A DNA stretch of 64,000 bases from Pseudonocardia petroleophila. Its GTDB lineage: Bacteria > Actinomycetota > Actinomycetes > Mycobacteriales > Pseudonocardiaceae. Under the pieces are notes generated by a model, which was not told the DNA's origin, searched no databases, and worked only from the letters and a program-made list of their open reading frames with translations. The stretch's first letter is position 1, and each line of letters starts with the position of its first letter. Below are positions 59,385 to 63,978 of this stretch, piece after piece. Location: contig NZ_CP060131.1 in the NCBI RefSeq assembly GCF_014235185.1, positions 3,851,501 through 3,915,500 of the forward strand. The letters run 5' to 3'. A program made the translations under genes and the position numbers.

Positions 59385-59475
59385 CTCCGGACGTCGCGGT
59401 CGGGCCGAAGGTAGGGATGCGGCCCGGGTCGGCCGCAGCGATGGGTCGGGCCTCCGGTGCTCGGCTCAGGTGGAT

Positions 59476-59524
59476 CGCCCGGAGGTCAGCACACCGGGGC
59501 GGGGGCGAGCGGCGATGAACCCGG
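59476..59524 (+). repeat. Leader block A, copy 2
   Basis: Second copy of the 49-nt block found at 57541, about four mismatches. It is about 170 bp before the next start codon, nearly the same offset as copy 1 has from ssb. Confidence 0.7.
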
Positions 59525-59600
59525 CCCACCCATCCCGGTGAGATCGCGTGCGGATCCGACATCGGCCGCCGGTCGGGAGGGCGATCACACCGGGATGAGC

Positions 59601-59634
59601 GAGCCGGAACCCCCGCCGTCCCTGCGGGACCCCC
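59601..59634 (+). repeat. Leader block B, copy 2
   Basis: Shares GCCGGAACCCCCGCC and the GTCCC/GGGAC stem with copy 1, but the loop is TGC instead of TACC. It lies 57 bp before the next ATG. Confidence 0.65.
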
Positions 59635-59691
59635 GCCCCGGCGTGCTGAAGCTGCGCCGCGTTCCCCCAACGCCGAGCACCGGAGACCCTC

Positions 59692-59913
59692 ATGACCATC
59701 ACCGCTACCACCGAGATCACCGAGTTCGACACCCGCGCAACCCGCCTCGCGGTCCTCGAAGCCCAGGTCTGCGAGGCCCGCGACGATATCCGCGTCGCCC
59801 GCCTCTGCGACGACCTGTCCCTCGCGTTCGACGCGCTCGAGTCCCTGGCCACGCTGATGCAGCACACCCTGCAGGAGCTCGCGCACCTCGGCGTCGAGAC
59901 CAACCCGCGCTGA
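59692..59913 (+). CDS. Small helical protein (element-associated)
   Basis: A 73-residue protein, mostly alpha-helical with heptad-like Leu/Ala spacing (LAVLEAQVCEARDDIRVARL, then SLAFDALESLATLMQHTLQELAHL in parts), so a coiled-coil dimer is likely. GGAGA precedes the ATG. It has the same duplicated leader as ssb, implying shared control. Function unknown. A hairpin terminator follows. Confidence 0.6.
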   Translation: MTITATTEITEFDTRATRLAVLEAQVCEARDDIRVARLCDDLSLAFDALESLATLMQHTLQELAHLGVETNPR

Positions 59914-60431
59914 CCACCCCGGGCACGTGGCCCGCCCGGAGTCTGGGCGGGCGGTGACGGTCGTGGCGACTGGGCTGCGTCCGGGCAGGGTGTGGTCTCG
60001 AAAAGGATGGACCGCATGCATCCGGGACCCTTATCCCCTGCCGCCCCGCAGAACCGCGAAGCGGGAGAGCAGGCGGGCCGGGTGACGTTCGTGCGGCGGG
60101 TCGACGAGGCGCCACTGGGACAGCTGGCTACTTCAGCCGGTCGCGGTTCGGTTTGCGACATGGTCGCGATCCTGACCTGACATCGGTCGCACTCACCTCG
60201 CTCACGACGGTCACAGGCAGTGCAGTGCACGGTGTCTCGGCATCATGGGGCGGTCCGAGCCGGGCGAGTGATGATCACCCTAGTCCGCCGGCCGCCAGGC
60301 TGCCCAGCAGCCGAATGGGACGCCCGTGCGGACTATCCGCCGTGGCGAGCAGATTAACAATCTGGCCAACGCCTGGATGGACAGGCACATGCGGGGTGGC
60401 TTTTGCCTGCTCAGGTACCATAATAGAACGT
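59914..60431. other. Intergenic region upstream of dprA-like gene
   Basis: About 520 bp. Besides the hairpin at 59,930 it shows a markedly AT-richer patch at 60,340-60,440 that includes the likely promoter and LexA-like box of the dprA-like gene. No convincing gene; short open frames have poor coding bias. Confidence 0.5.
59930..59952. terminator. Hairpin terminator
   Basis: GCCCGCCC and GGGCGGGC arms around a 7-nt loop, 16 bp after the stop of the 73-residue protein gene. Confidence 0.55.
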
Positions 60432-60439
60432 ATGTTCGA
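60419..60439 (+). promoter_or_regulatory. -10 element and LexA-box-like operator at the dprA start
   Basis: CATAAT (60419-60424) is a good -10 hexamer. TAGAAC-GTAT-GTTCGA (60424-60439) matches the actinobacterial SOS box TCGAAC-N4-GTTCGA with one mismatch. The ATG at 60,432 lies inside the box, about 7-8 bases from the -10, so the transcript may be leaderless and repression by LexA would block the start site directly. Confidence 0.6.
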
Positions 60440-61418
60440 GTATGTCGCTCGGTCGTGGGCCCGGGAGCGGGTACTGACCGCGGTCGGTGACGGCCCTACG
60501 CTGCCCAACGTGGGTACCTGGTGGAGCGATGACGAGCGTGCGGCGCTTGTCGCGCTGCTGCGCACTCGGCCCGGCGGGATGAAGTGGCCGCAGATCGTGG
60601 CCGAGGTCGACGCCCGCTCCAGCGCGCTCGCGCTCTGGAACGAGTACAACCCCGCCGACCTGTTCAGCGATTCCGCAGCGCCTGGGCTGCTCCAGGCACG
60701 CGCGGATATCGACGAGTGGCGGGCCGCCGACCTCGGGTTTCTGACGTTCCTGGACGCCGACTACCCGGCGCAGCTCCGCGAGATCCACGACCTGCCGCCG
60801 GTATTGTTCCACCGGGGCAGGCTCCTCGACGACGAGATCGCCGTATCCGTGGTCGGGTCCCGGGAGGCGTCCCGGCAGGGGCTCGACGCCGCGCGTGCGA
60901 TCGCGACGGGCCTGGTGGAGCGCGGCATCACCGTGGTCGGCGGGCTTGCGGCCGGAATCGACACGGCCGGTCACATGGCTGCGCTGGAGGCGGGCGGGCG
61001 CACTGTTGCGGTGATCGGCACTGGGATCCGGAAGTACTACCCGGCGGACAACCGCGAGTTGCAGGATCAGATCGCCGACTCTGGGCTGCTGCTCTCGCAG
61101 TTTTGGCCGGAGGCGCCCCCGACGAAGCAGACCTTCCCGATGCGTAACACCGTGATGTCCGGGTTTGGCCGCGCGACGATCATCGTCGAGGCGGGGGAGC
61201 ACAGCGGCGCCCGAATCCAAGCCCGTCGAGCGGTCGCCCACGCCCGCCCAGTGATCCTCACCGAGATGGTGGTGCGGGTGAACAAGTGGGCACAGGCGCT
61301 GCTTGACCGCCCCGGTGTCCATGTCGCGACCAGCACCGCCGAGGTGATGTCGATCGTGGAGAAGGTGACGGCGCGACCGTCGGACATGCTGTCGTTGCTG
61401 CGGGTCGCTGCCGGGTGA
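60432..61418 (+). CDS. dprA: DprA/Smf-like SLOG-domain protein
   Basis: This is a 328-residue protein. The Rossmann-like SLOG domain of DprA spans about 95-290: VVGSREASRQG near 141, GGLAAGID (170-177), TFPMRN near 235 and EAGEHSGAR (253-261). The N-terminal part (1-95) is not the usual SAM-like domain, and there is no C-terminal winged helix; the chain ends 40 residues after the core. This is shorter than chromosomal DprA and suits an accessory SLOG protein. ATG 60,432 sits in a LexA-like box; GTG 60,511 is a possible internal start. Its TGA overlaps the next gene's GTG. Confidence 0.85.
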   Translation: MFEYVARSWARERVLTAVGDGPTLPNVGTWWSDDERAALVALLRTRPGGMKWPQIVAEVDARSSALALWNEYNPADLFSDSAAPGLLQARADIDEWRAADLGFLTFLDADYPAQLREIHDLPPVLFHRGRLLDDEIAVSVVGSREASRQGLDAARAIATGLVERGITVVGGLAAGIDTAGHMAALEAGGRTVAVIGTGIRKYYPADNRELQDQIADSGLLLSQFWPEAPPTKQTFPMRNTVMSGFGRATIIVEAGEHSGARIQARRAVAHARPVILTEMVVRVNKWAQALLDRPGVHVATSTAEVMSIVEKVTARPSDMLSLLRVAAG

Positions 61419-62221
61419 CAAGCAGTCTCGCCGAGTTCTCGGAGCAGGCGCGGGCGTATCTGTTTTCGCAGGTCGGTGACTGTTTTACCAACACATCGCG
61501 CGGACCTGGCCGCTGCTTGGTGTGCACGGGGCCAACCGGCATCGCCGAGGTGCAGCTGTGCGGGCAGTGCTCACGGCAGCGAGCCGAGTTCGGCGTGGGG
61601 CTCGCCGATCTGGTGGTGCCGCTCGCCTACGTGCGCGGGTGGATGACACCGCAGCACCAGTCCGAGCACCTGGTGCGCCGCTACAAGTCGCCGGTGCAGC
61701 CGTCGCGATGGTGCGCTGAACTCCTCCAGTTCATGATCCACGCGGCGTCCGCTATCCACGGGCCGTGCATCGCGGCGGCGGCCGGTAGCTGGTGGCAGGT
61801 GATGACAATCGTGCCGTCGGCGACGCGGCTGGGTGCCGACCATCCCGTGGTCGGCCTGGCGCAGCAGGTGTTCGAGCACGGCAACAACGTCGACCGCGTG
61901 CTGCTGACGCCCACAGAGCACATTGCGTCCACGGACCGCCACCCACGCCGGGACATGTTCACCCTGTCGCCAGAGGTCGCAGCGAGGGTGCGCGGCAGAC
62001 ACGTCCTGGTCATCGATGACACCTACGTCTCCGGCTCCAGATCGCAGTCGGCTGCCCTGACGCTCAAGACGGCCGGTGCACAGCGGGTGACCGTGCTGTG
62101 TGTCGCCCGGTGGTTGAGCTACCGATGGGACGACCACTGGCGCCTCATCGAGAGCGTCCTGGCGCCGTACGACGCACTGATCCGCCCGGTAGGTTCAGGC
62201 CCCTGTCTCGCGCCGCGTTGA
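61415..62221 (+). CDS. ComF-like phosphoribosyltransferase
   Basis: This is a 268-residue protein. The N-terminal zinc-ribbon-like cysteines CLVC (34-37) and CGQC (49-52) are followed by a type I phosphoribosyltransferase domain with the PRPP-binding motif VLVIDDTYVSGSRSQSAA (around 197-214), where the paired Asp residues bind ribose. This is the general layout of ComF, but the sequence between the two is longer and unlike competence ComF. GTG start overlapping the DprA-like stop, so the two proteins are made together. In this setting a nucleotide- or DNA-related role with its partner is more likely than natural transformation. Confidence 0.82.
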   Translation: MTSSLAEFSEQARAYLFSQVGDCFTNTSRGPGRCLVCTGPTGIAEVQLCGQCSRQRAEFGVGLADLVVPLAYVRGWMTPQHQSEHLVRRYKSPVQPSRWCAELLQFMIHAASAIHGPCIAAAAGSWWQVMTIVPSATRLGADHPVVGLAQQVFEHGNNVDRVLLTPTEHIASTDRHPRRDMFTLSPEVAARVRGRHVLVIDDTYVSGSRSQSAALTLKTAGAQRVTVLCVARWLSYRWDDHWRLIESVLAPYDALIRPVGSGPCLAPR

Positions 62222-62474
62222 TCGGCGATCACCTTGCGGCTACGGAGTGCACCACGCACGGTCCTCCGCTCGTCGTCCCCGGAGCGCACGAGCGTGCCGT
62301 CGTTCCCCTGGCGTCAGAGGCTTGGCGGACGCGCGGGCTGAGCCTCGGGAGCAGATCAGCGATACGAAGTACAGCTTGGAAGTACAGCTACGCCAGCCGC
62401 CGCAGGCATCTTCTGCCAACCTCATCGTGCCCTCTGACCTGCGCAGATGCTCTCCGCAACCTCGCCGCCCGCAG
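62222..62474. other. Region before tRNA fragment
   Basis: About 250 bp with no convincing gene. It should contain the 5' half of the tRNA gene if the tRNA were complete; no such sequence is present. Confidence 0.5.
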
Positions 62475-62519
62475 TTCACACCGAAGAGGTCACTGGTTCG
62501 ATCCCAGTATCGCCCACCA
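62475..62519 (+). other. 3' fragment of tRNA-Val(CAC), probable attachment-site core
   Basis: TTCACAC (anticodon loop, anticodon CAC), CGAAG (3' anticodon stem), AGGTC, a perfect T-arm (ACTGG-TTCGATC-CCAGT), acceptor strand ATCGCCC, discriminator A and encoded CCA. The 5' half is missing: upstream bases do not form the CTTCG stem strand or a GGGCGAT acceptor. Integrating elements commonly carry exactly the anticodon-loop-to-3'-end segment as attP identity. A tyrosine integrase gene ends 75 bp away. Confidence 0.8.
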
Positions 62520-62593: not shown

Positions 62594-63799
62594 TCAGTCG
62601 CCGCCTGGCACGGACTGCTCAACGGCTCTGGAAACGGTGTCGGTCAGCGCTTCCTCCATGAGTTCGAGCGCCTCGACGACCGAGCTGTCGAACACCTCGC
62701 TGTAGATGCCCAGGGTCACGTTGATGTTGGCGTGACCGAGGATCATCTGTGCGTCGCGGGCTGGTACACCGAGGTCCTTCAGCAGCGTGGCTGCGGTTCG
62801 TCGCAGGTCATGGAAGACAATCCTCGGTAGAGCCTCGGCGGCCACGATCCGGTCGAAGGACCGCGACAGGTTGCGCGGCTCGATCGGCCGGCCGCTGCGG
62901 GTGGTGAATACATACCCCGACTCCTCCCAATCCTCGCCCGCATCCATCCTCTGGTCCCGCTGCTTGGCGGCCTGGGCGAGGAGTGATGCCCTGGCCATCG
63001 CGACGAGGGGGAGCGTTCTGGTTCCCGAGCGGGTCTTGGTCGGCCCCCTCACCAGGCCACCCCCGACCCGGATGAGGGTCGCCTCAACGCGGAGCCGTCC
63101 AGCGGCGAAGTCGACGTTCTCCCAGTGCAGTGCGGCTATCTCACCTCGCCGCAAGCCGTAGATCATCGCGAGGACGAAGACTACGTAGGCGCCGTCGCCC
63201 CGGGCGGCGTTGAGGAACCGGCGCGCCTGTGATGCGGTCCACGCCGTGCGGCGGTCTCGGTGTTCCTCCGGCAGCGTCGTCAGCTGGGCGACGTTGCGGG
63301 TGACGAGCTCCTCTCTCGTCGCGCGGCCGAGCGCGGAGCTCAGTACTTCGCGCATCATGCGGAGCTTCGGAACTGAGTCGCCCATCGCCCGCCGGCGGTT
63401 GAGGAACTCCTGCACGTGCCGGACGGACAGCGTGGCGAGCTTCTGTCGGCCGAGTCCCGGTCGCAGGTAGATCTCGATCGTGGATCGGTACTTCGCCATC
63501 GTGGTCGGGCGGAGCTTGGGCTCGGCTACTTCCTTCAGCCAGTAGTCGAGGTACTCGGACACGGTGGGTGTGCGCGTCGGGATGATTCCGCCGGCGTTCA
63601 CGCGCTGGGTGAGCTCGGCGAGCTTCTGGGCGACATCGGTCCGGGTCTTGCCGTAGATCCATTTCCGTCCCCGGCTCCCGTCAGGGCGAGTGACGTACGC
63701 CGCTGCTACGTAGCGACCATCTGCTCTCTTGGCAATGGTCCCCTCGCCGTTTCCTCGCTTGCGTCCTCGTCCGCGGTGCGGGGCATCGGGGGAGTTCAT
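62594..63799 (-). CDS. int: Tyrosine recombinase/site-specific integrase
   Basis: This is a 401-residue phage-type integrase. An N-terminal arm-binding-like domain (GNGEGTIAKRADGRY), then a SAM-like core-binding domain (about 78-165) and the catalytic domain with Arg217 (GLRRGE), Lys255, His330-x-x-Arg333 (HDLRRTAA), His356 (GHANIN) and nucleophile Tyr366. The full R-K-H-R-H-Y set is intact. ATG overlaps the excisionase stop (ATGA). It should catalyse recombination between the tRNA-Val site and attP; the att fragment lies just past its 3' end, the usual layout of actinobacterial integrative elements. Confidence 0.94.
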   Translation of the reverse strand: MNSPDAPHRGRGRKRGNGEGTIAKRADGRYVAAAYVTRPDGSRGRKWIYGKTRTDVAQKLAELTQRVNAGGIIPTRTPTVSEYLDYWLKEVAEPKLRPTTMAKYRSTIEIYLRPGLGRQKLATLSVRHVQEFLNRRRAMGDSVPKLRMMREVLSSALGRATREELVTRNVAQLTTLPEEHRDRRTAWTASQARRFLNAARGDGAYVVFVLAMIYGLRRGEIAALHWENVDFAAGRLRVEATLIRVGGGLVRGPTKTRSGTRTLPLVAMARASLLAQAAKQRDQRMDAGEDWEESGYVFTTRSGRPIEPRNLSRSFDRIVAAEALPRIVFHDLRRTAATLLKDLGVPARDAQMILGHANINVTLGIYSEVFDSSVVEALELMEEALTDTVSRAVEQSVPGGD

Positions 63800-63978
63800 G
63801 TGGCCTGGCTTCCGAGGTGCTCCAGGAAGCGTTCGAAGTCCTGGGCCCGCACCCGATGGCAACGACCCAGATGGACGCTGGGCAGGTCACCGGCCCAGAT
63901 CAGTTGGTAGACCGTCCATCGGGAGACCTGGAGCCGCTCAGCGACCTGGTCGAGAGTGAGGAGATCCGCTGCAGGCAT
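63796..63978 (-). CDS. xis: Excisionase/helix-turn-helix DNA-binding protein
   Basis: A 60-residue MerR-like winged-helix protein: LLTLDQVAERLQVSRWTVYQLIWAGDLPSVHLGRCHRVRAQDFERFL (in parts) is the standard excisionase-type HTH_17 domain, with the R-V-x-x-x-D-F ending. GGAGG lies 7 nt before the ATG. Translationally coupled to the integrase. It probably directs the integrase toward excision, and may also repress the promoter to its right. Confidence 0.88.
   Translation of the reverse strand: MPAADLLTLDQVAERLQVSRWTVYQLIWAGDLPSVHLGRCHRVRAQDFERFLEHLGSQAT

Follow-up and report, generated by a model that had tools for sequence, protein, structure and literature searches.

Several two-gene systems are known in which a DprA homologue acts as the antitoxin, namely shosTA, syrTA and rqlHI (PMC9122126), and one DprA-phosphoribosyltransferase pair, carried by a P2-like phage, gives E. 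coli protection from T7 and lambda (PMC9122126). In ShosTA of E. coli (structures 8zva, 8zvb, 9vzo and 9w2p) the DprA-like gene comes first and the phosphoribosyltransferase gene second, with overlapping stop and start codons, and the system is carried by phages, plasmids and islands. Surveys have also found it in actinobacterial prophages and plasmids (PMC10023795, PMC10482375). As summarized in a review citing Pu et al. 2025 (PMC12593503), ShosT acts as phosphoribosyl transferase and as pyrophosphatase and disturbs purine pools, leading to DNA duplications, filamentation and death, while ShosA is a DNA binder that counteracts it; the trigger that this review reports for E. coli ShosTA is T7 Gp0.7, and not the SOS response. 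In E. coli, RqlH without its partner elicits the SOS response and filamentation through its phosphoribosyltransferase domain (PMC4670107). PsyrTA and RqlHI likewise have a DprA-like antitoxin restraining a phosphoribosyltransferase toxin, but PsyrT and RqlH are RecQ-like helicases fused to this domain. Toxin systems under SOS control are known from E. coli as tisB/istR and symE, which are of the RNA-antisense type; they resemble the locus described below in having a LexA box before the toxin system, although the proteins are unrelated. Many phage-defence systems are thought to be constitutively poised, and the switching of ShosTA is only partly known.

The gene pair considered here lies in a 64-kb window (the whole stretch of DNA that was analysed) of a Pseudonocardia genome. 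It is best explained, with a probability of about 0.7, as a diverged actinobacterial toxin-antitoxin or abortive-infection system of the ShosTA type, located on an integrative island and belonging to the SOS regulon of its host, in which it would be repressed by LexA and switched on by DNA damage. This type of system is already known; on the sequence data, what appears to be new is chiefly the recurrent LexA control, along with the diverged zinc-ribbon toxin. A search confined to open-access literature found no report of SOS control of ShosTA and none of a diverged zinc-ribbon ShosTA toxin. Coordinates of the individual features are collected in Table 1.

Table 1. Features of the Pseudonocardia gene pair and of the adjacent mobility genes (positions are those of the window).
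Feature	Position	Strand	Basis or remark
-10-like hexamer CATAAT, abutting the LexA box	60419..60424	+	sequence; cATAAT|CGAAC also in the independent homologous loci L012, L015, L017, L097 and L136
Predicted LexA/SOS box TAGAAC-GTAT-GTTCGA over the start codon	60424..60439	.	one mismatch to TCGAACN4GTTCGA
shosA-like gene (predicted antitoxin), DprA/SLOG without winged helix	60432..61418	+	Pfam DNA_processg_A 8.6e-59; PADLOC ShosA 8.8e-61
GTGA overlap, toxin-like gene start on antitoxin-like gene stop	61415..61418	+	sequence; predicted translational coupling
shosT-like gene (predicted toxin), zinc ribbon and phosphoribosyltransferase	61415..62221	+	PADLOC ShosT 1e-4, phosphoribosyltransferase core
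Zinc ribbon CxxC-x11-CxxC, residues 34-52 of the toxin-like protein	61514..61570	+	invariant in 19/19 aligned homologues
PRPP-binding loop HVLVIDDTYVSGS	62000..62038	+	homologue alignment A1; model core pLDDT 70-90; Foldseek matches
tRNA 3'-end fragment (T-arm, acceptor to CCA), att-like	62486..62519	+	sole genome copy; right end of the block common to G009
Tyrosine integrase	62594..63799	-	Pfam Phage_integrase 1e-23, Phage_int_SAM_3 1.7e-11
Small HTH (excisionase-like) gene that overlaps the start of the integrase gene	63796..63978	-	Pfam HTH_17 4.1e-14

The first gene encodes a protein of 328 residues with a DprA/SLOG domain (PF02481), and its assigned start, the ATG at 60432-60434, is the sole in-frame start in a 98%-identical copy in another species (G009). 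Since the Rossmann domain is followed by no more than some 45 residues, the protein is predicted to be devoid of a winged helix; its AlphaFold model (pLDDT 85), which ends in a short helical tail, is in agreement with this. The overlap between the two genes recurs as ATGA or GTGA in most homologous loci, and the DprA-like gene is found directly upstream of the toxin-like gene in nearly all of them. Both traits, the missing C-terminal winged helix and the GTGA junction, had been proposed in a preliminary description of this DNA and were borne out. The same holds for its view that the locus is not one of competence, as no competence genes were found near the pair. An identity with the ordinary chromosomal dprA/comF was rejected, because the yifB-dprA locus of the host lies elsewhere, at 6.35 Mb of the 6.49-Mb genome and 2.4 Mb away from the pair. 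That canonical dprA has a C-terminal extension read as a winged helix and lacks a LexA box, and a second copy of the phosphoribosyltransferase was not found in the same genome. The pair shares with the competence proteins the SLOG/Rossmann domain of DprA and the zinc ribbon and phosphoribosyltransferase of ComF, but differs from them by the lack of a winged helix and by its position beside mobile genes.

The second gene, with a GTG start, encodes 268 residues including the PRPP-site motif VLVIDDTYVSG. Residues C34, C37, C49, C52 and D202 were invariant among 19 aligned homologues. Matches to described families were weak, those to PF00156 (E 0.006) and to ComF (1.2e-4) both falling below cut-off, and the score against TIGR00201 (ComF) was 22.1 bits for a cut-off of 233.55, although the layout of zinc ribbon and phosphoribosyltransferase is present. 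Foldseek matches included phosphoribosyltransferases, ComF of H. pylori (the second fold match) and ShosT (8zvb); they are weak evidence because the AlphaFold model (mean pLDDT 55) is poor beyond the phosphoribosyltransferase core, where pLDDT reaches 70-90. The nearest named relative was from Pseudonocardia endophytica (73% identity).

Comparison with ShosTA gave a clear result for the antitoxin side and a more distant one for the toxin side. PADLOC assigned the DprA-like protein to ShosA, and the solved E. coli ShosA (8zva) matched it both in sequence (7.8e-21) and in fold (1.4e-19, among the best structural matches). The PADLOC match of the second protein to ShosT covered residues 184-232 only, within the phosphoribosyltransferase core, the N-terminus with its zinc ribbon being different. 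Eighteen of the 19 aligned homologues also matched ShosT, at best with 9.7e-7, and the profile of this family (A1) matched the solved ShosT (8zvb) at 7.6e-5. For comparison, an E. coli plasmid pair with identical gene order and a 4-base overlap scored 4e-103 for ShosA and 2.2e-50 for ShosT. Judged from these profiles, membership in ShosTA is distant on the toxin side: the system is of the same kind, sharing gene order, ShosA homology and a PRPP-site phosphoribosyltransferase core, with a diverged toxin bearing an additional, N-terminal ComF-like zinc ribbon. The substrate of this toxin may differ from that of ShosT, since the ShosT match is weak and limited to the core and since the ComF-like zinc ribbon is present. 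The preliminary description had suggested a defence or toxin-antitoxin-like module without naming ShosTA; homology to this known phage-defence system favours that suggestion and gives it a name. Membership in PsyrTA/RqlHI was rejected because the 268-residue protein has no helicase domain.

The pair has a scattered distribution on mobile DNA: it was present in 18 of 149 relatives, on plasmids and in phages, and further copies occurred in genomes of the same genus. A phylum-wide search with the toxin beyond the order returned mostly generic phosphoribosyltransferases without a DprA-like neighbour. In a motif-based test, the toxin reading frame was broken and the antitoxin frame intact at 10 loci, versus one locus with the reverse, an excess that may be taken as a weak genomic sign of toxicity. 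In the locus pairs L097/L105 (G223) and L099/L104 (G290), the toxin gene is interrupted, either by some 1 kb of inserted DNA or by a change of frame, and the antitoxin gene is open.

Another possible explanation, which we consider unlikely, is a damage-induced DNA-processing module, in which the DprA-like protein would load RecA on single-stranded DNA and the ComF-like phosphoribosyltransferase would assist repair or DNA uptake, SOS control then serving recombination, for instance that of the element itself. The DprA residues of the single-stranded DNA and nucleotide fold are kept in the first protein, the second resembles ComF in its combination of zinc ribbon and phosphoribosyltransferase as well as in the H. 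pylori fold match, genes for an SSB and a primase-polymerase are present in the same island, and most SOS genes are repair genes. However, among characterized two-gene systems of this order the closest are ShosTA, whose members act as toxin and antitoxin, and the scattered mobile distribution, the preferential breakage of the toxin frame, the missing winged helix and the lack of competence genes near the pair all argue against a processing role. Protection of incoming single-stranded DNA, one of the roles envisaged earlier, is less likely as the main function.

The palindrome TAGAACGTATGTTCGA encloses the ATG of the first gene, as the preliminary description had noted, and was the sole site in the 64 kb to match TCGAACN4GTTCGA with no more than one mismatch. 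It agrees, save for the second base, with the consensus tCGAAC-N4-GNNCGa obtained by LexA ChIP-seq in S. venezuelae (PMC9380542). A 13-kb stretch around the box held two sites versus 0.02 expected, and the whole genome held 58 sites versus 4 for the reversed control, with perfect copies just upstream of dnaE2, of an alkB-like oxygenase gene and of DUF222 genes. Given the single site in 64 kb, the genome-wide enrichment and the conservation in homologous loci, a chance palindrome was rejected. A scan for the sigma-70 consensus returned no plus-strand promoter and only a weak one on the opposite strand, so the -10 hexamer is argued from its conservation. Its position places the predicted transcription start on the ATG or immediately beside it, from which we infer that the mRNA of the pair would be leaderless. 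In this genome, LexA boxes also directly precede several DUF222/HNH (13E12-like) genes.

The box is conserved in a large part of the actinobacterial homologues. Among 36 actinobacterial loci, which were chosen by toxin protein similarity only and include near-copies, and hence are not independent samples, the 250 nt around the shosA start contained a perfect box in 16, a box with at most one mismatch in 27 and one with at most two mismatches in 30, versus 0, 3 and 16 sites, respectively, in the other 121,346 bp of these loci. Two promoter layouts were observed, one with the -10 element followed by the box, as in the Pseudonocardia pair, and one with the box followed by TANNNT, which suggests that the control has been kept rather than the exact sequence. 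A start-like codon within the box was in frame with shosA in 12 of the 29 actinobacterial boxes holding such a codon. The Pseudonocardia layout, with the ATG inside the box and the box at -8, was exactly repeated on a 77-kb virus contig (L136), and the same in-frame geometry occurred in several genomes; in Gordonia phage Vasanti the box deviates at one position. No box was found at L021/L087, L090, L092 and L098, in phage Bosnia, or in most of the mycobacterial, Rhodococcus and Streptomyces plasmid copies that were examined. The sequence features given in the preliminary description were all confirmed, and both objections that it had raised at this level, an identity with the chromosomal dprA/comF and a lack of the LexA-like site in homologous pairs, were settled in favour of its interpretation: the site is conserved at 27 of the 36 loci and is replaced by other box types in part of the proteobacterial ones (see below), with the reservation that several lineages have no box. 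On a separate branch, the virus contigs L138-L140 carry pairs of DprA and a double-zinc-ribbon ComF-like phosphoribosyltransferase, in which LexA-type boxes (TTCGAACATACGATCGAAC) precede the DprA-like gene.

Outside Actinobacteria, proteobacterial LexA boxes were over-represented at the DprA-like genes of virus contigs, and the downstream partners of these genes were clear ShosT-type phosphoribosyltransferases. A set of 48 proteobacterial ShosT-type loci was drawn from toxin similarity (virus contigs) or ShosA similarity (plasmids). CTGTN8ACAG occurred in 9 of the 48 start regions, where 0.17 would be expected from the other parts of the loci and the reversed control gave 0. GTTCN7GTTC, the alpha-type box, occurred in 8 (0.21 expected; reversed control 1), of which the Enterobacter hit (L218) is probably due to chance, leaving 7. 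Examples are TACTGTATATTTTCACAGTA and GTTCTATATTTGTTC. Carriers of the alpha-type box were plasmids of Rhizobium, Sinorhizobium and Sphingobium; no box was found in the group of Enterobacteria, including the E. coli plasmid copy, or in the P2-like phage copy, and in this respect these ShosTA copies differ from the Pseudonocardia pair with its box at the predicted transcription start. On a tree of 95 DprA-like proteins, the box labels required at least 19 changes, which means that box control was gained or lost repeatedly.

The switch of the site to proteobacterial LexA types in Proteobacteria points to the LexA of the host as the regulator, a match between box type and host for which the plasmids, together with the division into two proteobacterial types, provide the basis. 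This switch also argues against binding of the box by a repressor other than LexA with a similar palindrome, such as a regulator encoded by the element. It is true that the island is mobile and has regulators of its own, that operators are often palindromes of such length, and that a second box of the same type is present at 66343; but the site differs from the actinobacterial LexA consensus (PMC9380542) in one base only and the motif precedes known SOS genes, and we regard a ShosTA-like pair under such a repressor as quite improbable.

These data suggest that ShosTA defence may often be held off until DNA is damaged. The broader proposal, to which we give only somewhat better than even odds, is that ShosTA-type pairs are recurrent members of the SOS regulon that acquired the box of the host LexA separately in Actinobacteria, Alphaproteobacteria and Beta/Gammaproteobacteria, resulting in an abortive infection armed by DNA damage with a DNA-damaging toxin feeding back on its own induction. 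The SOS response would thereby be linked to a toxin that damages DNA and an antitoxin that binds it. The presence of a LexA box on the promoter of such pairs in unrelated bacteria, each time in the form of the host LexA, would offer a handle on damage-gated abortive infection, and the box could serve as a sequence signature for predicting inducible ShosTA copies. If this is true, exposure to mitomycin or quinolones, as used for prophage induction, may activate such defence modules.

The following course of events can be proposed for the Pseudonocardia pair. In undamaged cells, a LexA dimer on the box would block transcription by covering the -10 element and the start points of transcription and translation. 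Phage attack or other DNA damage would generate single-stranded DNA and activated RecA, leading to LexA cleavage and to the synthesis of a probably leaderless mRNA, from which the DprA-like ShosA would be translated first and the phosphoribosyltransferase ShosT second, by re-initiation at the GTGA. ShosA, as a DNA binder, would restrain ShosT until infection upsets the balance and the antitoxin is overcome or outnumbered; active ShosT, as a PRPP-dependent enzyme, would then disturb the nucleotide pool and damage DNA, stopping both cell and phage, and this damage would further lift LexA repression. The LexA block is derived from the box and its conservation, the later steps from the ShosTA literature and inference. 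Since LexA would repress the antitoxin along with the toxin, no plasmid-addiction behaviour is expected under repression.

The location of the pair beside an integrase, 370 bp downstream, and on a mobile element was confirmed. To its left lie an SSB gene and a primase-polymerase gene, and related modules recur rightward beyond the 64-kb window. In the island region 53500-72200, which lies partly past the window, two related module sets, comprising SSB, primase-polymerase, a large gene without Pfam match and a phrog_1362/DUF932-like gene, flank the pair and integrase. The search for another att copy of the tRNA 3' end found none in the whole genome; the orphan end is possibly attP or an att site from another host. 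In G009, the block 59429-62517 is 97% identical and ends at 62517, identity in the neighbouring modules is 72-90%, and the integrase region has no match. This contrast suggests that the pair moves as cargo beside the att-like site. A decayed or neutral copy, with the pair as an island remnant and the box as a relic, could be read from the orphan tRNA end and the duplicated modules, but is very improbable given that both frames are intact, that catalytic and zinc residues are conserved, and that box and reading frames are kept in the intact pair of the other species.

A second LexA-like box, TCGAACATGCGTTCGC, lies in the same island at 66343-66358, past the window end (10343-10358 of L003), upstream of a small gene of no assigned family (MTPSERRGAYNRANARAIAET...). 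The islands of this genome and of G009 contain just these two LexA-like boxes, at the pair and before the small gene, and both are kept in G009 despite base changes.
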